DNA of 37,760 nt, from positions 1-37,760 of IMG/VR virus record IMGVR_UViG_3300042010_000060; one strand, given 5' to 3'. The position numbers and the translations under genes were made by a program. The DNA is from a virus. The notes beneath the pieces are model-generated. The model saw only the letters and a list, made by a program, of their open reading frames with translations. It was not told the DNA's origin and searched no databases. Positions 4,466 to 36,198 of this stretch are shown here, in pieces (the stretch's first letter is position 1; every line of letters starts with the position of its first letter).

Positions 4466-4831
4466 TCAGATGGTCGCAGCGGAACCCAGCATAGGCGCGG
4501 CGATGATTTCAGGGATTGGCGGCTCAACCGGCCACACAGGCGCCTGGTACCAGGTCGGCTGAACCGTGACCTTGCCCAAGGCGTACTTGTAGGTTTTCCA
4601 GGCCTTGAGGTTGAGCAGCAATGCGGCCTGCTCCGCCTCTTCTTCTGGCGTGGCCTCGCCGATCTCGATGCCGAAACCGATCGTCTCGATCCGGTCCTGG
4701 ATGCGCGCTATCTGCGCGTTCGCCTTGTTGTTCCTGGCTGACAGGTCCAGTTTCGCAGCGGCCAGCTGTGCGGCAGCAGCGGCTGCGTCCTTCATGGCCT
4801 TGGTGATGAGTTGCGACCAGTCAATATTCAT
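4466..4831 (-). CDS. Putative tail-fibre assembly chaperone
   Basis: The start is ATG at 4831, overlapping the previous stop as TGATG. The 121-residue product has an N-terminal amphipathic, Ala-rich helix, a long helical middle with Glu-rich TPEEEAEQAALL, and a C-terminal KAWKTYKYALGKV region. Helical proteins ending in a WKxYRxxL motif right after the fibre gene are usually fibre-assembly (Tfa-like) chaperones. Similarity is to that general pattern, not to a specific member. A terminator follows. Confidence 0.6.
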   Translation of the reverse strand: MNIDWSQLITKAMKDAAAAAAQLAAAKLDLSARNNKANAQIARIQDRIETIGFGIEIGEATPEEEAEQAALLLNLKAWKTYKYALGKVTVQPTWYQAPVWPVEPPIPEIIAAPMLGSAATI

Positions 4832-5770: not shown

Positions 5771-6448
5771 TTAAACGACAAGTTTCGCGAATATTGCTGG
5801 CATGAAAAAAGCGAACGGATTGGCGGTACCGGTAGCTACGGCATATAGCGTTCCGTTTTGGAAATCCCACAGCGTATAAACCAATCGGCCTTGTGGCGCC
5901 CCTGAAACCATGAGCATGCTGAAAGTATTTATCAGCAGGTATTCGTTCTCAGGAAAGGCGAACGGAACCGTGTAATAATTTCTTGTAGCGCCAGTACCGC
6001 CGTTCTCGAATCGCTGATATGTCCAATTTTGAAATGCCCTTACAAAAAGAGCACTAGGTGTTCCGGAGTCGAACAGCAGTTTCGTTGACCCATTCCATAG
6101 CCTCAATCCGAAGGACGCGACTGGCTGTGAACCAAACGCAGCCGCAAAATAGCGTCCATTCGGCTGTGCCGTAGAGTCGTTGTAGGCTCTTACATAAAAT
6201 CCGGTCCAGTTTCCGGGGCTTCCAATTACTTGCATTTGCCCAAGGCCAGCAATGGCACCAGTATCTGGTCGGCAAAATATAAGTGGAGGCTCCGCACTGG
6301 TGATAGCGATCGGAAAAAATGTGGTCGAACCTAGATTAAACTCCTCAGTTGGAGCATAGCGACCACTACAAATAACATTAAGCCGTCCAAACTCAGAATC
6401 AATGACGACTTCGTTATTATTGTTCGTAAAAGTCAGTCCATATGTCAT
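5771..6448 (-). CDS. Tail-tip structural protein
   Basis: A 225-residue beta-rich protein starting MTYGLTFTNNNNEVVIDSEF, an N-terminus I associate with tail-tip proteins encoded after J in Pseudomonas lambda-like phages. Its codons are visibly more AT-rich than those of the neighbouring J gene, for example runs like ATTATTATTG near 6415. It starts inside the stop of the preceding gene (four-base overlap). It is probably a receptor-contact or J-associated protein. There is no enzymatic motif. Confidence 0.6.
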   Translation of the reverse strand: MTYGLTFTNNNNEVVIDSEFGRLNVICSGRYAPTEEFNLGSTTFFPIAITSAEPPLIFCRPDTGAIAGLGQMQVIGSPGNWTGFYVRAYNDSTAQPNGRYFAAAFGSQPVASFGLRLWNGSTKLLFDSGTPSALFVRAFQNWTYQRFENGGTGATRNYYTVPFAFPENEYLLINTFSMLMVSGAPQGRLVYTLWDFQNGTLYAVATGTANPFAFFMPAIFAKLVV

Positions 6449-10304: not shown

Positions 10305-10895
10305 TTACGCTTTGTCTTCGGCGTAGATCGATGCGGAAATGATCATCCCGCCCCACCGGCGTTCGCCGATGCAGATCGGGACGGGGTTACCGCTGGCCGT
10401 GGTGTTCTTGGCGCTGCCGAAGGCGTAGGAAGGTGCGTTCTCAGGCCCGGCGCTCTGCTTGAGGCCGGATGCTTGGGGGCTGAGCATCTGAATGACGCCG
10501 CCGGCGACAAGAGCAATGCCCACCGGTGCCAGGGCCTGGAACCCCGGAATGAACGAGGCAGCAATGAGCACCGCCCCGACAATTGTCTGAAGCAACCCGG
10601 CGCGCTTACTGCCCGAGATCACCGGCACAATCCGAATTTCCTCGGCGCCACCCAGCGCGAACTCCTTTTCCGCGACATTCTTCCGGTTCCGAAAAATCGC
10701 GAACCGCATGCCTCGGCGCTCCAAATCCTTGATTGCCAAGTCGAAGCCATCAAGCGTGCATTTCAGCGCTTTGAACGCCTCGCCTACCGACCTGCTTCCA
10801 AGTTCTCGGCGGTGGACCCGGCCAAACAATTTGATGAGCGGGCCCGAGAGCAGGATGGTGGTCATTGTTGGATGGCTGCAATTGATCGCTGACAC
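10305..10895 (-). CDS. I: Tail assembly protein I
   Basis: A 196-residue homologue of lambda I. The N-terminus (TTILLSGPLIKLFGRVHRREL) is the typical beta-grasp start. A hydrophobic Ala/Gly-rich helix pair follows at about 110-147 (LLQTIVGAVLIAASFIPGF, then ALVAGGVIQML), and the ending NPVPICIGERRWGG with a C-terminal SASIYAED is conserved. The start is GTG at 10895, with GGAG six bases upstream. An ATG at 10865 would give 186 residues. It acts with J, L and K in initiating the tail tip. Terminators stand on both sides. Confidence 0.85.
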   Translation of the reverse strand: MSAINCSHPTMTTILLSGPLIKLFGRVHRRELGSRSVGEAFKALKCTLDGFDLAIKDLERRGMRFAIFRNRKNVAEKEFALGGAEEIRIVPVISGSKRAGLLQTIVGAVLIAASFIPGFQALAPVGIALVAGGVIQMLSPQASGLKQSAGPENAPSYAFGSAKNTTASGNPVPICIGERRWGGMIISASIYAEDKA

Positions 10896-24617: not shown

Positions 24618-25966
24618 GGGGTTACCTCTGCGTCGGTTTTAGGGTCGTCGGCGGCAGCTGCTAGGTCATCACCCTCCTCATCCTCTGTCCGCTCGTTACC
24701 GAACTTCTCGATAGCAGCCTCCAGGCCAGGCATGACGCTGAGCTCCACCAGCAGGTTCACTGCGGAGGCGGACAAGGCGTCCTCGGGGAACAGGCCTGAT
24801 TCCTTCAGCGCCTTGATGGTTTCCGCCGTGGTCTTGCCTATGTCTGCCCGCTCCTTGGCCGTGGCCTGCCACAGTGGCGCCCAGACGTAGTGGATTTCCT
24901 TCGGCCGGCTGCCCAGGGCAGATCTGATCAGGCACTCGTCCAGCACGCTCATGGCTGGCTTGATCTCCAGCTTCTGGCGCGACGCGACGTTGTCGTAGTA
25001 GTTGCGGGTGTTCTCCTCGCCGTTGGCGCCCAGGCCAGTGGAGGACTGGCCGAACATGCGCGTGCCAGGGATATCGAAGGCACCCGCCACGCCCTGCTCG
25101 GTCTTGGCGATCACATCGGGCAGCGTGCTGAAGCTGGCCGACTTGGAGCTGTGCGTCTCCAGACCGTCGAGGATAAGCGTCCCGTTGATGCCCTTCGCGG
25201 TTGCAGCCAGGCGCAGACGCTCCAGCAGCTGCCGCTCGTAGTTCTTGTCCTGCATGCTGGACATGAGGTTCGGAATGTTGATGACGTCGATCTTGGCCTC
25301 GTAGACCAGGCTGACCACGTTGGCGACCGTCTCGTCGTAGTGACGCACGGCGGGCATTGCGGCCAGCAGAACCGAGTCACCCCAACCGAATCCGCATCCC
25401 ACCGCGAGCTCTGGGTCTGGATGCGGCGAACCGATGAAGATAACCAGGCGGGACGGGTGAATTTCGACCTCGCTGCCAGGGAGACGGTAGGCCTTTGGCT
25501 TTCCGAATCGCGGGCTTTGCGGATCCTGCTCAATCTCGGTCGCGCTCAGCTGGCGACGGGTCATGACAGTGAGGTACTTGATTCCGCCCTGCTGCACGCG
25601 CTCAGGATTCAGCTCGGATGCCGTGTCACGCTCGCCGGTGCCGATGAATACCGCAGCACCACCGAACAGGCGGGCCTTCAATAGCGCCTCCAGAGTCTTG
25701 CCCTTGACGTTCAGGCGCTCCTCTTCGGCCTCGATCAGCTCGATCTGAGCTTTGTCGGCCTGCCAGTTGCGCCAGTTGCGGCAGGCATCTACCGCAGGGA
25801 TGGTTACGCCCTTCTGTGCGGTCCAGGAGCCACGGAAGGCGTTCAGCAGCTGCTGGTCGTCCATTTCCGGGAGGACATAGTGCGAGTGTGATGCCTTGTC
25901 GCGCGCAGTACCCAGTCCTGCGACCAGGTTCTGCAGGCTGTCTTTCAGGTAGGTGAGTGCGCTCAT
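24614..25966 (-). CDS. Portal protein (DUF1073 family)
   Basis: A 450-residue protein of the DUF1073 portal family: SLQNLVAGLGTARDKASHSHY, LRNAFRGSW-type NAFRGSWTAQKGV, WRNWQADKAQI, ARLFGGAAVFIG and GVAGAFDIPGTRMFGQSS are family blocks. It forms the dodecameric ring for DNA packaging. The C-terminal 20 residues are acidic. The ATG at 25966 overlaps the terminase stop (ATGA). It is followed directly by the protease gene, as in other phages with this portal type. Confidence 0.9.
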   Translation of the reverse strand: MSALTYLKDSLQNLVAGLGTARDKASHSHYVLPEMDDQQLLNAFRGSWTAQKGVTIPAVDACRNWRNWQADKAQIELIEAEEERLNVKGKTLEALLKARLFGGAAVFIGTGERDTASELNPERVQQGGIKYLTVMTRRQLSATEIEQDPQSPRFGKPKAYRLPGSEVEIHPSRLVIFIGSPHPDPELAVGCGFGWGDSVLLAAMPAVRHYDETVANVVSLVYEAKIDVINIPNLMSSMQDKNYERQLLERLRLAATAKGINGTLILDGLETHSSKSASFSTLPDVIAKTEQGVAGAFDIPGTRMFGQSSTGLGANGEENTRNYYDNVASRQKLEIKPAMSVLDECLIRSALGSRPKEIHYVWAPLWQATAKERADIGKTTAETIKALKESGLFPEDALSASAVNLLVELSVMPGLEAAIEKFGNERTEDEEGDDLAAAADDPKTDAEVTP

Positions 25967-27282
25967 TTTTCGCTCACGTTCGCGAGTGTGTAGGAGTTTG
26001 CGAGGCCGTACCGCTGGGCGATCATGTAGCCCATCGCATCCACCATGTGATCGAACCCGCCTTTCTTGTCTGGATCGCCCTTCTTGTCGTAAACCTGGCG
26101 CTCAAGGCACTGGGTCAGCTTCGGGCACTGGTCAACGTTGACCTTGTAGCGGCGCTCGCCGTAGGCGTTGAGGAACATGGCGTTAACCGCGTTCACACGG
26201 TCTTTCACGCCCGGGTTCGTCGAATCTACGTACACGGCAAAGCCTGCTGTGCGAAGCAGCGACAGATCGGACTCGCTCGCGTCTTTGCTACTGGTGTTCT
26301 GGCCGCTGGCATCGGGATACACCGCGATGCTGTGCCCGTGGAACCGCGCCTTGATCTTCTCGATCATCTCGGGCGTGTCACGCACCGTATGGAACTCATC
26401 GAGAGCCAGAGGCAGGCCGTTACGGACCACGTTGACGACCGCCGACATTTTCATAACGTTGAAGTCGATGCCGATGTGCAGTGCTTCACCGGGCTTGATG
26501 CGCTCGGTGGTGCGGCACTCGTCTCGGTTGAAGGTGTAGTAAACGACGCCTTGATAGTTCTCAAAGCTCGCCTCGTATTCCTGGCGGAACGTGCGCGGGT
26601 CCATCTTACGGCGTGCCGCTTCGATCTCTTCCGGCGGAACGTTACCCCCGTCTACCGAGGTGTAGAGCCAGCTTTTGTGGTCGGGCTCGTTACCCGGCCG
26701 GCCATCTTGAAAGGTGTCGTAGCAGTGGTTGAAGCCTTTCGGAGTGCCGATACGCAGGGCGTGGCCGCCCTTCCGCAGGCCAATGCCCGGTATCGAGTAT
26801 TGGCAGGTCGAGAGCATCGGCCTCAGGACTTCTTCCCAGGCCTCCCACGGGCAGTCCGCCCATTCATCCACCAGGACGAAGAACAAACCGGAGCCCCGCA
26901 GGTTGTCGTAATTGTCGAGCCCCACCACGCGCATTACGTGGCCAGACTTGAGCGTGATCGAGCATTCCGTCTCATTCGGGCGATGTGCACGCCAAGCCTC
27001 TGGGATCGCTTGCTTCAGCCGTCGCCAGAACACACGTTTGGCCTGCTTGAAGGTCGGCGCGCCGTACCAGATTTCATCCTCGACGCTCACGCCCCACTCA
27101 GCAGCCAGCCGAGCAGCGCGTCGCATCTCAGCCTTACCCAAGAACGTCTTGCCGAACCGTCGACCACACACCGCATCGCGGAAGCGCGCCTGAGGCTGGA
27201 AGCCCCAGCAGTAAATGTTCGCCTGCTTCGGCGTCAGCTTTACCGGCGGGTCATAGGTACGGGGTAGCGGGGACATTCTCAT
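25963..27282 (-). CDS. terL: Terminase large subunit
   Basis: A 439-residue protein when started at the ATG 27282 (GGAG upstream; 27276 is also possible). The N-terminal ATPase has a Walker A CGRRFGKT (residues 39-46) and a Walker B FVLVDE (135-140). The C-terminal RNase H-like nuclease has HIGIDFNV near residue 275 and DHMVDAMGY near 415, giving the acidic metal ligands. It packages DNA through the portal. The first 30 codons overlap the end of terS in another frame. Confidence 0.93.
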   Translation of the reverse strand: MRMSPLPRTYDPPVKLTPKQANIYCWGFQPQARFRDAVCGRRFGKTFLGKAEMRRAARLAAEWGVSVEDEIWYGAPTFKQAKRVFWRRLKQAIPEAWRAHRPNETECSITLKSGHVMRVVGLDNYDNLRGSGLFFVLVDEWADCPWEAWEEVLRPMLSTCQYSIPGIGLRKGGHALRIGTPKGFNHCYDTFQDGRPGNEPDHKSWLYTSVDGGNVPPEEIEAARRKMDPRTFRQEYEASFENYQGVVYYTFNRDECRTTERIKPGEALHIGIDFNVMKMSAVVNVVRNGLPLALDEFHTVRDTPEMIEKIKARFHGHSIAVYPDASGQNTSSKDASESDLSLLRTAGFAVYVDSTNPGVKDRVNAVNAMFLNAYGERRYKVNVDQCPKLTQCLERQVYDKKGDPDKKGGFDHMVDAMGYMIAQRYGLANSYTLANVSEK

Positions 27283-27727
27283 CAGGCTCCAGGGTGTACT
27301 CAGCAACGGCGTGCTGCTGGTCCGCTTGGGAGCCCAGAGGTTTTTCAGGTTCAAGGCGGCGATTCACGTAAACGTCGCCCACTTCTTTGGCTGCCTGCTC
27401 CAACAACTGGGCAGTCAGCGCCATGTTCTTCATGTTCTCGGCCTTCTCGGCCATGCGCCCCAAGGTGCGAAGGCGATACGCTCGGTTGGCGATCGGGATC
27501 TCTGCCGTCTCTTCGCGGAACCTCTTTCGGGTGTCGTTGAACAGCGTCTGCCACTTCACGTGCAGGTTGCGTCCAACGTACTTGGTTGGGTCGTATGCCT
27601 CGCACTGCTGGCGGGTAACTTCGAGCCCGAATCTTTCTTTGACGGACGCCACCACTTGCGATGGCGTGTCAAAGCAGGCGAGAGCCTGTACGACAAAGGC
27701 TTTCACCTCGTCTCTGAGTGCGGCCAT
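27251..27727 (-). CDS. terS: Terminase small subunit (DUF2280)
   Basis: A 158-residue protein matching the DUF2280 family of small terminases: ALRDEVKAFVVQALACFDTPSQV is a helix-turn-helix-like start, then YDPTKYVGRNL and ANRAYRLRTLGRMAEKAE. It recognises the packaging site and activates TerL. It is located directly before terL, and its end overlaps the terL start. The recognition site (cos or pac) cannot be told from this sequence. Confidence 0.87.
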   Translation of the reverse strand: MAALRDEVKAFVVQALACFDTPSQVVASVKERFGLEVTRQQCEAYDPTKYVGRNLHVKWQTLFNDTRKRFREETAEIPIANRAYRLRTLGRMAEKAENMKNMALTAQLLEQAAKEVGDVYVNRRLEPEKPLGSQADQQHAVAEYTLEPDENVPATPYL

Positions 27728-27757: not shown

Positions 27758-28381
27758 TCAGGCCGACTTGAGCAGACAGGTTCCGCAGGCCCTCGCAATG
27801 TTCAATTTCCCCACCTCAGCAGGACTGTTTGCAGCATCCACCAGCTCTTGCACCTGAGCGCTTGCCCCATAGCGACGCACCACACCGACGAACTCTTCCA
27901 CATCATGGCCCTGGAGCTTGATCTTCGGCGCACCGTCTTGGGTGAAGGCTGGTTGACCGTACTTGTCGGTCGCGTGAGCCAGGTGATACAGCTCATGCTC
28001 AATCAACGCGCAGAAGTCGAGGTCACTGCAGTTGGCGCAGTAGTCAGCAGCCAGGGTGATGATGAAGCTCGGCACATCGCCGAACCAATCACGCATCTGC
28101 TGCTCCATCCGGGCCTTCTGCCAGCCACCGGCACGGAACGCCACCTGCTCGGCCTGGCCCAGGACTGTGCGACTCTGCTTGTTGAAGCTTGAAGACGCCC
28201 ACATCACTCGGATGTCTGCATCCAGTAGATGGGCATGATCTTCGTTGTGAATGCTGCCGGTGTCGGCAAGGATCTCGGCTTGGAGCCATTCCCACACTTC
28301 AGGTGCAGGGGTCAGGCGGATACCGAAGTCGGAGAGCTCAGACAGTTCGAGCAGCGATGCGGGCGGCATTGGCCTATCCAT
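27758..28381 (-). CDS. Putative phage zinc metallopeptidase (HExxH)
   Basis: A 207-residue protein with a clear zincin motif HELYH (129-133) within ALIEHELYHLAHATD, plus a CANC pair (Cys115, Cys118) and C-terminal CGTC. This fits the phage metallopeptidase family found near terminase genes of Pseudomonas phages, related in motif to SprT-like proteins. The substrate is unknown. GGAGGG precedes the ATG. It lies between the holins and terS, so it is made late; capsid processing or host-target cleavage are the contextual options. Confidence 0.75.
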   Translation of the reverse strand: MDRPMPPASLLELSELSDFGIRLTPAPEVWEWLQAEILADTGSIHNEDHAHLLDADIRVMWASSSFNKQSRTVLGQAEQVAFRAGGWQKARMEQQMRDWFGDVPSFIITLAADYCANCSDLDFCALIEHELYHLAHATDKYGQPAFTQDGAPKIKLQGHDVEEFVGVVRRYGASAQVQELVDAANSPAEVGKLNIARACGTCLLKSA

Positions 28382-28392
28382 GCATCCCTCCA

Positions 28393-28436
28393 GTGTCGCG
28401 ACACAATTTGCTGATGCGCGAAATGTGTCGCGCTAC
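28393..28436 (+). repeat. Two-palindrome element, copy 1 (between metallopeptidase and holin genes)
   Basis: GTGTCGCGACAC (28393-28404, perfect palindrome), 20 bases, then GTGTCGCGCTAC (28425-28436). Centre spacing is 32 bases. The same arrangement, inverted in the window, occurs at 34428-34471 inside rha. The plus-strand translation here (VATQF-ADARNVSR) even resembles the Rha N-terminus (VATRFQDSSNVSR), so the two are related by descent. Confidence 0.8.
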
Positions 28437-28753
28437 GGTTTCTTCTCACAGTCCATGCAGTGTTCGCAGTTCATGGTCCGGCAGAGCCAGGCCTTCACGC
28501 GCAACCACCAGATGACCATGAAGATGTGGCGCAGACCTGCCAGGGCCAGCGACATGTGCAGCGTTAGGCCGGCTGTGGTGGGGCCAAAGAAGATGTTCTG
28601 GCTACGCGTCATCACGACAAAGCCGCTGATGGCGATGGCCGAATAAATCAGTTTGCCCAGGATGCCGTCTTTCACATTCCCACTCAGCACGCACCATGTG
28701 GCCCACAGCGCAATAAGGCCGCAGGCGATGGAGTTGATCAGTTCAAGACTCAT
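28433..28753 (-). CDS. Holin-like membrane protein 2
   Basis: A 106-residue protein with three predicted membrane segments (about 7-27, 36-53 and 65-88) and a Cys-rich tail (CRTMNCEHCMDCEKK). It overlaps the preceding holin-like gene by four bases. Size and topology fit class I holins or antiholins. Pairs of such proteins upstream of terminase are common in Pseudomonas phages. Which of the two forms the lytic hole cannot be told. Confidence 0.7.
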   Translation of the reverse strand: MSLELINSIACGLIALWATWCVLSGNVKDGILGKLIYSAIAISGFVVMTRSQNIFFGPTTAGLTLHMSLALAGLRHIFMVIWWLRVKAWLCRTMNCEHCMDCEKKP

Positions 28754-32930: not shown

Positions 32931-33699
32931 AGGTGCCATCCTCCCGACGAATCAGGCCGGCGGTGTAGTCCCGGTCAGCGAAACCGGTGTGACGGGATGC
33001 CGGGAACGGGTGGACGTTGCCGATGGCCTTGTCCGGGAATATCCCGGTCCAGCCGTTGGCGATCGAGATTGCGAGCACCTGGTCCGGGGATGCATGACCC
33101 ACCAGTGACTTGGCCTGTTGCTCACAGCTCTTGGCGGTCAGTGGCTTGCGGATTTCCTTACGGTGCTGGCACCAGTCGGCCCAGGCCTTTTCGGAAACGT
33201 TGTCGGGCTTGGCAGTCATCGGATCGAACTTGCCAGACTTCGCCGGTGCGCCAGCACCTTGCTTTTGATCTTGCTCTTTCTTCTCTTCTCTTCTCTTCTC
33301 TTCTCTGGTCCGCAAACTGTCCGCATCCGAAGCGGACAAATTGCGGACAGGGTTTTTCCGCTCATTGCGCTTGCGTTCCGAGTCGTTGGCGCGGCGCTTG
33401 GCGCTGGCCCCGTTGTGCTCGTCAAAGCGCGGCATTACGAGGCTTCCATCGTCCTCAAGGGCCGCCCACTCAACGTCGATCATGGCCTGGGTGAAGCCAG
33501 GCCAGCCCACCACTGCATCCATCGCATCCACGGTGTATCCCACCAGCACACCATCGTGCGAGTGGGTGTCGAAGATGCTCCAGGCGACATGCAGTCCGCC
33601 GATAATCCTCAATCTGTCCGCTTGCAATGCGGACACCATGCGGAACACTTTCGGATGCGTCTGAAGGTCGATTCGCATTTTTATCCAGTCTCCGGCCAT
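32920..33699 (-). CDS. Replication initiator protein (lambda O-like position)
   Basis: A 259-residue protein. The N-terminal 100 residues (DWIKMRIDLQTHPKVFRMV, then RLRIIGGLHVAWSIFD) form the winged-helix domain seen in phage and plasmid initiators. A charged linker with repeated REEKRREEKKE at about residues 130-140 joins a C-terminal helical domain (KAWADWCQHRKEIRKPLTAKSC). Such proteins bind the origin, often inside their own gene, and recruit the helicase loader encoded next. The linker is encoded by five tandem GAGAA units. The ATG overlaps the rha stop (TAATG). Confidence 0.82.
   Translation of the reverse strand: MAGDWIKMRIDLQTHPKVFRMVSALQADRLRIIGGLHVAWSIFDTHSHDGVLVGYTVDAMDAVVGWPGFTQAMIDVEWAALEDDGSLVMPRFDEHNGASAKRRANDSERKRNERKNPVRNLSASDADSLRTREEKRREEKKEQDQKQGAGAPAKSGKFDPMTAKPDNVSEKAWADWCQHRKEIRKPLTAKSCEQQAKSLVGHASPDQVLAISIANGWTGIFPDKAIGNVHPFPASRHTGFADRDYTAGLIRREDGTYAF
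33281..33305. repeat. Pentanucleotide microsatellite (TTCTC)5 in the initiator gene
   Basis: Five perfect TTCTC units (plus strand) within the linker of the replication initiator. The unit is not a multiple of three, so gain or loss of one copy would shift the frame. Confidence 0.9.
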
Positions 33700-34505
33700 T
33701 ACTTACTGCCTTTGCCGACGATGCCGGCAAGCTCGAGGAAGCGATCGACGTACCAGTGGGGTTGCGTCTCGCGTGGGGATTGGGGGCTGGTGAGGTTCTT
33801 GCCGTACTGGAGACCCTTTTCAGTCACCGACCAGAACGGAACCATTTCGCCCTTGGAGTTCTTGCGCTGGAGCTGCTTGAGGAAGCCATGGGCAGCCAGG
33901 GCAGTGTTGAAGGCCGCAGGCGCGCAGCGGATGCCGCTGTCCTTGAGTAAGGCTGTGGCGGACTTCGTAGGCATCGATGAGCCGCCGATGGAATCGGGCG
34001 CGGCGTCGATTGCGTAGCCTGGGAGGAATTTAGGGTCGAGGCCATTGTTCTGCGCGATCTTGGTCAGCATCATCATTTGGCTTGATGGCGCCGGCTTCAG
34101 CAGTCTGGTGAAGCACTCCATGATCGCCAGCTCACCGACGACCTTCACACTGGCGGGCAGCTCGGGCTTTTGAGCCTGCTTTTCAAGGTACTGCCAGCGA
34201 TCAACCAGCTTGCCGGTGAATTCTGGTGAGAGTTGAGCGACGATAACGTAGCTGTCACGCTCACCCACGTTGTAGACCCTGGTGGCGCGAGGCCGGCCAA
34301 GTTTGTCTATTGCCCATTCATCCTCAGATTGAGGATGGACCAATCCGCCCTCGGCCAAGTCTTCGATGAGCCGCTTCACGTTGTCGTGACGCTTCTTGGT
34401 CAGCTTTGATATTTCCACCGATGACATAGTGCGCGACACGTTTGAGGAATCTTGGAATCGTGTCGCGACATTGGCCGGGGGCTTGATGTTTGTGGTGGTT
34501 TGCAT
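33699..34505 (-). CDS. Rha-family phage regulatory protein
   Basis: A 268-residue protein. TMSSVEISKLTKKRHDNVKRLIED (about 27-49) is the Rha signature (xSxEIAxLTxKxHxNVxRxI), and RVYNVGERDSYVIVAQLSPEFTGKLVDRWQYLE completes the domain. A second, KilA-C-like domain fills the C-terminal half (VTEKGLQYG near residue 220). Rha proteins of lambdoid phages interfere with growth in certain hosts and are thought to be regulators. The first codons contain a two-palindrome operator-like element. The start lies shortly after a plus-strand terminator. Confidence 0.82.
   Translation of the reverse strand: MQTTTNIKPPANVATRFQDSSNVSRTMSSVEISKLTKKRHDNVKRLIEDLAEGGLVHPQSEDEWAIDKLGRPRATRVYNVGERDSYVIVAQLSPEFTGKLVDRWQYLEKQAQKPELPASVKVVGELAIMECFTRLLKPAPSSQMMMLTKIAQNNGLDPKFLPGYAIDAAPDSIGGSSMPTKSATALLKDSGIRCAPAAFNTALAAHGFLKQLQRKNSKGEMVPFWSVTEKGLQYGKNLTSPQSPRETQPHWYVDRFLELAGIVGKGSK
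34428..34471 (-). repeat. Two-palindrome element, copy 2 (inside the rha 5' end)
   Basis: On the minus strand ATGTCGCGACAC, 20 bases, then GTGTCGCGCACT; centre spacing is 32 bases as in copy 1 at 28393-28436. It encodes the VATRF...NVSRT segment of Rha. Confidence 0.8.
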
Positions 34506-35079: not shown

Positions 35080-35256
35080 CTACGCAGCCTGGGATTTCTG
35101 CTCAGCTTTCAGCGCGCCCAGGGTGATTCGCTCGATCTGGTACTGGCGCAGCTCGGGCACGTCATCCCACTGGCGGACGGCCTCGTAGGTGACGCGCAAG
35201 GCTTTTGCCAGCGCCGAGACGGAGCCGAAATGCTTGATTGCTTGTGATTTGGTCAT
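35080..35256 (-). CDS. cro: Cro-like repressor
   Basis: A 58-residue helix-turn-helix protein: KSQAIKHFGSVSALAKALRVTYEAVRQWDDVPELRQYQIERIT is the Cro pattern of P22-type phages (SALAKAL...AVxxW...RxYxIxxIT). It shares the recognition-helix residues YEAVRQW with the CI protein, so both should read the same operators. AAGGAGG precedes the ATG. It is the first gene of the early minus-strand operon and diverges from cI. Confidence 0.87.
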   Translation of the reverse strand: MTKSQAIKHFGSVSALAKALRVTYEAVRQWDDVPELRQYQIERITLGALKAEQKSQAA

Positions 35257-35275
35257 GCCGACCTCCTTTTGCTTA

Positions 35276-35304
35276 TTCATATTCAAGCATGCTTGTGTTT
35301 GCAA
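35276..35304 (-). promoter_or_regulatory. Putative early promoter PR for cro and replication genes
   Basis: On the minus strand TTGCAA (35304-35299), 17 bases, then TATGAA (35281-35276). The first operator palindrome lies between the two elements, as expected for repression. Confidence 0.5.
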
Positions 35305-35343: not shown

Positions 35344-36198
35344 ATGAAAATTACTGATCGAATCCAGAAGCTGGTCGTGACCCGGAAGCCAGATGTTGGC
35401 CCGCGTAGCTTCAAGCGTGATATCGCGACCACTTGTGGGGTCAGCTATGAGGCTGTTCGCCAATGGTTTGCTGGTGACACGAGCAACATCAAAAACGAAC
35501 ACCTGATTTCCATTGCGGAAGGCTATGACACCAGTGTCGATTGGCTTCTATCGGGCCGAGGCGAACCACCTCGAAGGAAAGATGCGCCGCCCTTGATGGA
35601 CGCCACCGACAGCAAGTCGGCTGCCGATATCGTCCGGCAGATGCTGGAGAAACACGGAAAGAGTCTCACTGAGGATGCTCGCAAGATGATTGCGAACGCT
35701 GTGGAGGAAACCGCCGTCCAGCTTAAATCTGGAAACGTCATCCATGTGGACTTTTCGCGCCCAGGGCAGGTTGGCGACGAGGTTTGGATTGCCCATTACG
35801 ACGTTCGGGCGGCTATGGGTGGCGGTCAGGTACCTGGCGATTATCCAGAGGTGCTCCAGGACATACGGGTAAGTCCGACGCATCTTCGGCAGATGGGAGT
35901 GGAGTTCACCGAGCACTACCACCTCAAGGTCATCACCGGCTGGGGTCAGTCAATGACTCCCACCATCAAGCATCGCGACCCACTGTTAGTCGACGTCAGC
36001 ATTCGGGAGTTCGTCGGCGACGGGATATACCTGTTCTCACATGACGACATGCTTTACATCAAGCGCTTGCAGAAAAAGGGGCGCGATCATTTCAAGATGA
36101 TCTCAGACAACACCAATCACCCTGCCGAGGATATTCGCGTGGATGACACCTTCATCCAGGCGCGGGTGCTGCTGGTCTGGAATGCGAATTTGGTTTAG
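35344..36198 (+). CDS. cI: CI-like prophage repressor with S24 autoprotease
   Basis: A 284-residue protein. The N-terminal helix-turn-helix is at about 22-42 (SFKRDIATTCGVSYEAVRQW). A linker (75-130) leads to a LexA-type S24 peptidase: Ser203 (GWGQSMTPTIK) and Lys240 (MLYIKRLQK) form the catalytic dyad. RecA-triggered self-cleavage would lift repression under SOS; the likely cleavage region is the AAMGGGQ segment near 156-161. It holds the prophage silent. It diverges from cro and shares its recognition residues. Confidence 0.92.
   Translation: MKITDRIQKLVVTRKPDVGPRSFKRDIATTCGVSYEAVRQWFAGDTSNIKNEHLISIAEGYDTSVDWLLSGRGEPPRRKDAPPLMDATDSKSAADIVRQMLEKHGKSLTEDARKMIANAVEETAVQLKSGNVIHVDFSRPGQVGDEVWIAHYDVRAAMGGGQVPGDYPEVLQDIRVSPTHLRQMGVEFTEHYHLKVITGWGQSMTPTIKHRDPLLVDVSIREFVGDGIYLFSHDDMLYIKRLQKKGRDHFKMISDNTNHPAEDIRVDDTFIQARVLLVWNANLV

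Follow-up and report, generated by a model that had tools for sequence, protein, structure and literature searches.

A paired inverted repeat shared by operons of Pseudomonas temperate phages and their satellites is a candidate docking site for a phage regulator

The window examined here, which is the whole 37.8-kb stretch of a virus record whose relatives are temperate phages of Pseudomonas, has its late genes on the minus strand and carries two copies of a paired repeat (Table 1). The late-operon copy occupies the 51-bp gap between the stop codon of the holin gene (28433) and the start of the metallopeptidase gene (28381), and the ribosome-binding site and ATG of the latter come directly after it. 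Its core, CGCGACAC-N20-GTGTCGCG, spans 28397-28432, and the same gap is occupied in many phages. The right-operon copy lies within the 5' coding end of rha, where it is translated as VATRFQDSSNVSR. Judging from its position, the DUF2280 gene downstream of the late copy presumably encodes the small terminase subunit. The product of the gene at 27758-28381 is assigned by PHROG 513 to transposases, versus a putative phage metallopeptidase across the whole domain by Pfam. Because the contig ends within the left operon, beyond the CI-type gene, the third site expected there falls outside the window.

Table 1. Copies of the element and neighbouring genes in the window.
Feature	Coordinates	Strand	Details
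Late-operon copy, class T	28394-28435	+	Complete TGTCGCGACA at 28394-28403; exact N20
Right-operon copy in rha	34429-34470	-	Complete palindrome 34461-34470; core 34432-34467
Large terminase gene	25963-27276	-	PF17289/PF03237
Small-terminase candidate (DUF2280), downstream of late copy	27251-27727	-	PF10045, E 6.3e-47
Putative phage metallopeptidase gene	27758-28381	-	PF18894 PhageMetallopep, E 4.8e-41
Holin gene, stop codon abuts late copy	28433-28753	-	PHROG 2508 holin, E 3.5e-33
rha antirepressor-type gene, holds right-operon copy	33699-34505	-	PF09669 Phage_pRha, E 3e-8; phrog_63 anti-repressor Ant
Cro-type regulator gene, right operon	35080-35280	-	PF14549 P22_Cro, E 1.4e-25
CI-type repressor gene	35344-36198	+	PF00717 and PF01381

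The original prediction had described an element of two palindromes that is duplicated at these two places. Both copies are there: the pattern TGTCGCGACACN20GTGTCGCGACA, with at most 3 mismatches allowed, matches the window exactly twice (with 2 mismatches in the late copy and 3 in the right-operon copy), against 0.01 matches expected from dinucleotide shuffles. The 10-mer TGTCGCGACA by itself is not enriched in the window at up to 2 mismatches (19 observed, 21.9 expected), and it is therefore the paired arrangement that is significant. The pairing thus stood, whereas the description of each copy as two palindromes needs amendment, since one complete TGTCGCGACA is present per copy and the other half is shortened to GTGTCGCG.

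Across phages, the conserved unit is a directional inverted repeat of about 42 bp, CGCGMCAC-N20-GTGKCGCG, whose inner arms are AT-rich. Of the two main sequence classes, one has the self-palindrome, and the change from class T to class G takes two bases, one per arm (A to C and T to G). Other variants include CGACACC...GGTGTCG and, in the left operon, a TGTCGCGACC...GGTCGCG-like form. The spacer is strongly preferred at N20 (29 cases), followed by N21 (6), with any other length seen at most twice. On the sense strand, 63 of 65 rha-type copies have the complete half at the 5' side and 54 of 57 lysis-gap copies have it at the 3' side, and this one-sided palindromic extension gives the element a direction. 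The opposite orientation of the two window copies, as originally noticed, is thus real and general. The further proposal that the late copy derives from an rha start is not supported; lysis-gap copies form their own conserved lineage with the inner sequence AATTTGCTGATTCGCGAAAC, oppositely oriented and present in many phages, and the Rha-like peptide is simply the shared site read antisense to the late operon.

Where rha and lysis copies occur in one genome, they mostly belong to the same class (15 GG and 12 TT pairs, 3 mixed), and classes are confounded with host group, class G being found in P. syringae phages and class T in many fluorescens-group genomes. Mixed classes within a single genome (phiAH14a, G009, G024 and G075) mean that a single binder must tolerate both, or that two binders exist.

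Three genomic positions recur. The first is the 5' coding end of the antirepressor gene, whether Rha or others; the second is the gap between the lysis genes and the terminase region; and the third is the 3' coding end of a small ribbon-helix-helix (RHH)-like gene of the left operon, with N20 or N21. Where the left operon is of another kind, the site precedes the excisionase gene. Most sites therefore lie inside operons, in coding ends or in gaps between a stop codon and a ribosome-binding site, and not at promoters. Additional copies just downstream of cI in G004 (L379:16612, spacer 19) and Medea1 (L120:10143, spacer 20) might represent a fourth position.

Exact N20 sites whose inner arms are AT-rich number 61 in 34 phage genomes or large pieces, compared with none in two Markov-shuffled sets, and 30 of the 34 have two such sites. 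A scan of IMG/VR, whose records are possibly fragments and whose gene calls here are simple ORF calls, for TGTCGCGACACN{17,23}GTGTCGCG returned at least 119 stretches, and among the matches listed the spacer is 20 or 21 only, even though 17 to 23 was permitted. The corresponding class G scan returned at least 120 stretches, nearly all of which, among the matches listed, have the same AT-rich inner arms and fall into the same two settings. The N20 form occurs in 114 stretches from a set of 84,980 species genomes, and all but one among 80 of these come from sequences titled Pseudomonas, while reversed-pattern controls were almost empty. One contig titled Streptomyces sp. IBSBF 2953 (L156) carries the Pseudomonas phage element together with an RHH-like gene and is probably contamination. 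Contigs with an RHH-like gene and no exact site mostly have the relaxed form CGACAC-N20-GTGTCG. Phage D3, of which 36 kb were scanned, has no site there even when 2 mismatches are allowed. In the open-licence literature we found no description of the element and no paper on TGTCGCGACA in a phage context, and shorter site fragments gave only unrelated papers among the matches listed. On this basis, the element looks like an apparently undescribed docking site for a putative regulator.

Two of the three positions are in coding DNA. The arms are read as VATR...ENVSR in rha and as PRHE...ENVAR in the left-operon RHH-like gene, where the left arm is in another frame, and the lysis-gap copy is non-coding. 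The class change at the identical rha position alters the encoded peptide. When 59 placements were compared across 70 non-redundant left-operon homologues, synonymous conservation was highest at the arm codons (0.93 versus 0.47). The original prediction had held that loss of the palindromes where rha is kept would mark them as a codon coincidence. Medea1 and Aurca01 have rha as in the window and lack TGTCGCGACA, but carry CGCGCCAC-N20-GTGGCGCG at the same spot, and this replacement argues against such a coincidence. Given the two-arm class change, the other reading frame and the synonymous constraint, we reject codon coincidence, and these patterns make a DNA-level recognition site well supported. 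The proposal that such a site links early and late operons and is plausibly bound by a regulator is upheld as well.

Several host contigs carry the site but no phage genes. These site-bearing islands encode an integrase, an AlpA-type regulator, a DUF927 primase and a phage-family tail assembly protein (65-67% identity), and the site directly precedes their late-type (tail assembly protein I) module. L806, L807 and their relatives have the marks of phage satellites of the P4/PICI-like kind, namely an integrase, an AlpA-type regulator, their own primase and an incomplete capsid/terminase set. The P4/PICI-like Pseudomonas islands L804, L806, L807 and L810 share an integrase, AlpA or a similar HTH protein, and tail assembly protein I; the DUF927 primase is in L806 and L807, and a DUF2280 small-terminase homologue is in L810. 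A potential hairpin, CCTGCCCTACCGAAATGGGAGGTCAGG, is conserved directly after the satellite site in L140, L145, L149, L151, L171, L177, L222, L805 and L810.

One such element has already been described experimentally: in passages of PMC4936722, phiAH14b is a satellite of the helper phiAH14a. The helper is a relative of the window phage, the satellite has the same plan as the islands found here, and both carry the element. An exact class G site lies at 10506 of phiAH14b, in the p18-p19 gap, and phiAH14a has three sites, at 6073, 19109 and 27228 (record coordinates of the latter two are derived from the locus offset). Once the tail assembly protein I gene and a terminator-like stretch are set aside, the elements rank at the top of the sequence that the two genomes share; those same passages report the shared tail assembly protein I and do not mention the element (PMC4936722). 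A second phiAH14b site with one mismatch, at 4695 (L813:4695), lies at the 3' end of p08 and again encodes ENVAR. The presence of the site in satellites suggests that the factor is trans-acting.

The main rival to a regulatory function is packaging, since helper and satellite are both packaged by the headful mechanism. In this case the site would be the packaging start (pac) signal that the helper terminase recognizes and that satellites carry in order to be packaged. The lysis-gap copy lies between lysis and terminase genes, which is a frequent location of packaging signals. According to passages of PMC4936722, phiAH14a and phiAH14b are both headful-packaged into the same capsids, and phiAH14b lacks a terminase. 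The satellite should therefore carry the helper's packaging signal, and the element is among the few sequences common to the two. However, a single site tied to the terminase is what would be expected of cos or pac, whereas each phage has two to four copies, the additional ones in early operons. Furthermore, an identical 36-bp lysis-gap site is shared by phages with unrelated terminase modules (DUF2280/TerL family 13 versus families 58/65; for example G003 and G032 versus G006 and G030), and the late site of the helper phiAH14a is of class T whereas that of its satellite is of class G. A terminase-specific packaging site is thus not favoured, and we consider packaging an unlikely explanation.

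An equally improbable alternative is that a host protein, such as a silencer of foreign DNA, binds the site instead of a phage protein. It is consistent with this idea that site class tracks the phage population, probably reflecting the host group, and that satellites and phages have the site in common but hardly any regulator. Against it, just 1-4 sites are present in each of twelve whole host genomes, and host-genome sites with flanking sequence lie mostly within prophages or islands, so that no core target regulon is seen. A single site per operon in a set position is also unlike general silencing. Since satellites share the site and host core genes apparently do not, its reader is likely to be encoded by a phage.

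It is far less probable that the element acts as RNA, with a hairpin in each transcript serving antitermination (in the manner of nut or put) or cleavage. Transcripts of all three operons include the sites, the outer 8-bp arms always pair, and satellites have the further hairpin-like stretch after the site. However, lambda nut and HK022 put are conserved as paired RNA in the sense transcript, and the element fails this comparison: its inner pairs have no excess of G.U over A.C (46 versus 73 in rha copies, 67 versus 66 in lysis copies), and one inner pair is mismatched in 70 of 80 lysis copies. Also against RNA are the opposite orientation of rha and lysis copies, the one-sidedness of the palindromic (TGT/ACA) extension, and the distance of about 9 kb between the left-operon copy and its presumed promoter. 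Least credible of all is a module-boundary linker kept for phage recombination and not for regulation: the same leader and element do precede different antirepressor modules, and sites do coincide with the borders of operon sub-modules, but homology requires no symmetry, and a dyad that survives two-arm class changes with strict spacing must itself be recognized.

We therefore return to regulation and consider it probable, from the pattern of conservation, that the repeat is a dispersed protein-binding operator present in the left, right and late operons, read by a putative phage regulator and used by satellites. A phage DNA-binding protein, probably a dimer or a pair of dimers, would sit on two arms that are about three helical turns apart and would govern transcription wherever an operon crosses the site. 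With most sites inside operons and not at promoters, control would be exerted on the passing polymerase, perhaps as a block that is released upon induction; the presumed sign of control, be it block, activation or antitermination, is read from position. By carrying the site, satellites could make their late module follow the switch of the helper. The fuller version, in which one phage protein reads the repeat in three operons, with two of the sites in coding DNA, and satellites of the P4 and PICI kind are wired in through it, is one that we advance tentatively.

RHH-like proteins, which the original prediction named as a type of binder, are reasonable candidates, but the two it singled out in the window (34591 and 34823) are unlikely and were set aside, since just 5 and 8 of the 34 genomes, respectively, have relatives of them. 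CI and Cro were likewise rejected, as both vary among phages of one site class, and CI also varies between phages with a site in common. The most attractive binder would be the left-operon RHH-like protein, whose own gene carries the site. This family (about 100-125 aa, with some two-domain members of about 160 aa) has a strand-like segment followed by two helices and is present in most complete genomes examined. It gives no Pfam hit, and a sequence search against solved structures returned nothing useful. Residues 23-68 of an AlphaFold model weakly resemble the RHH fold, with DNA-binding domains of the RHH type (TCP domains and NikR) as the leading structure matches (Z at most 3.8, E at least 2.5). 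Relatives were gathered by single-protein searches, as the absence of a conserved stretch makes alignment-based searching unsuitable. One subtype (L402:8542-9030 and relatives L755-L801) has an apparent tandem domain duplication in one chain.

In newly gathered contigs, the RHH-like subtype corresponds closely to the class of sites 10-20 kb away, with class G for subtypes A (27/28) and D (18/19) and class T for subtypes C (13/14), Q (16/17) and H (13/15). However, in a leave-one-out control, tail genes predict site class equally well or better (18/18 and 19/20 versus 23/27), and the association thus reflects population structure and was rejected as evidence for the binder. In the ELRHR subtype, the site within the gene itself is of class G, and those elsewhere in the phage are of class T. 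The RHH-like gene is absent from G005, G024 and the satellites. In G057 (L419:9489) it is broken, with only the C-terminal half open, and the rha and lysis sites are exact. Our guess, and a doubtful one, is that the binder is this near-universal left-operon protein, or an Arc-family protein where the left operon differs.

Known systems offer partial parallels. Stoperators are bound by the immunity repressor, are short and asymmetric, lie near start and stop codons, and number about 20-30 copies. Passages of PMC9283540 describe those of mycobacteriophage L5 and Cluster A as dispersed repressor sites that act on elongation. The element resembles them in being dispersed in several copies inside operons (30 of 34 genomes have a pair of N20 sites, to which the left-operon site is added). 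It differs in being a long inverted repeat with one copy per operon and no known repressor, and, whereas stoperators keep a fixed orientation to transcription, the rha and lysis copies are opposite. With P2 Ogr and P4 delta, satellite late genes share an activator site with helper operons, and here too satellite and helper have a site in common; Ogr sites occupy a position near -55 of late promoters, whereas the element is also in early operons and inside coding ends. In P22, the RHH proteins Arc and Mnt regulate the antirepressor gene ant, and the Arc operator is in the ant promoter, whereas the element lies within a coding sequence and recurs in two other operons.

The element is present at fixed positions in hundreds of Pseudomonas phages, and also in their satellites. 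A caution that follows is that operators can be embedded in the coding ends of phage genes, 5' as well as 3'. The site could serve as bait for its regulator, and site class might offer a way of pairing helpers with satellites. If the element is regulatory, it would account for the joint switching of early, late and satellite genes.
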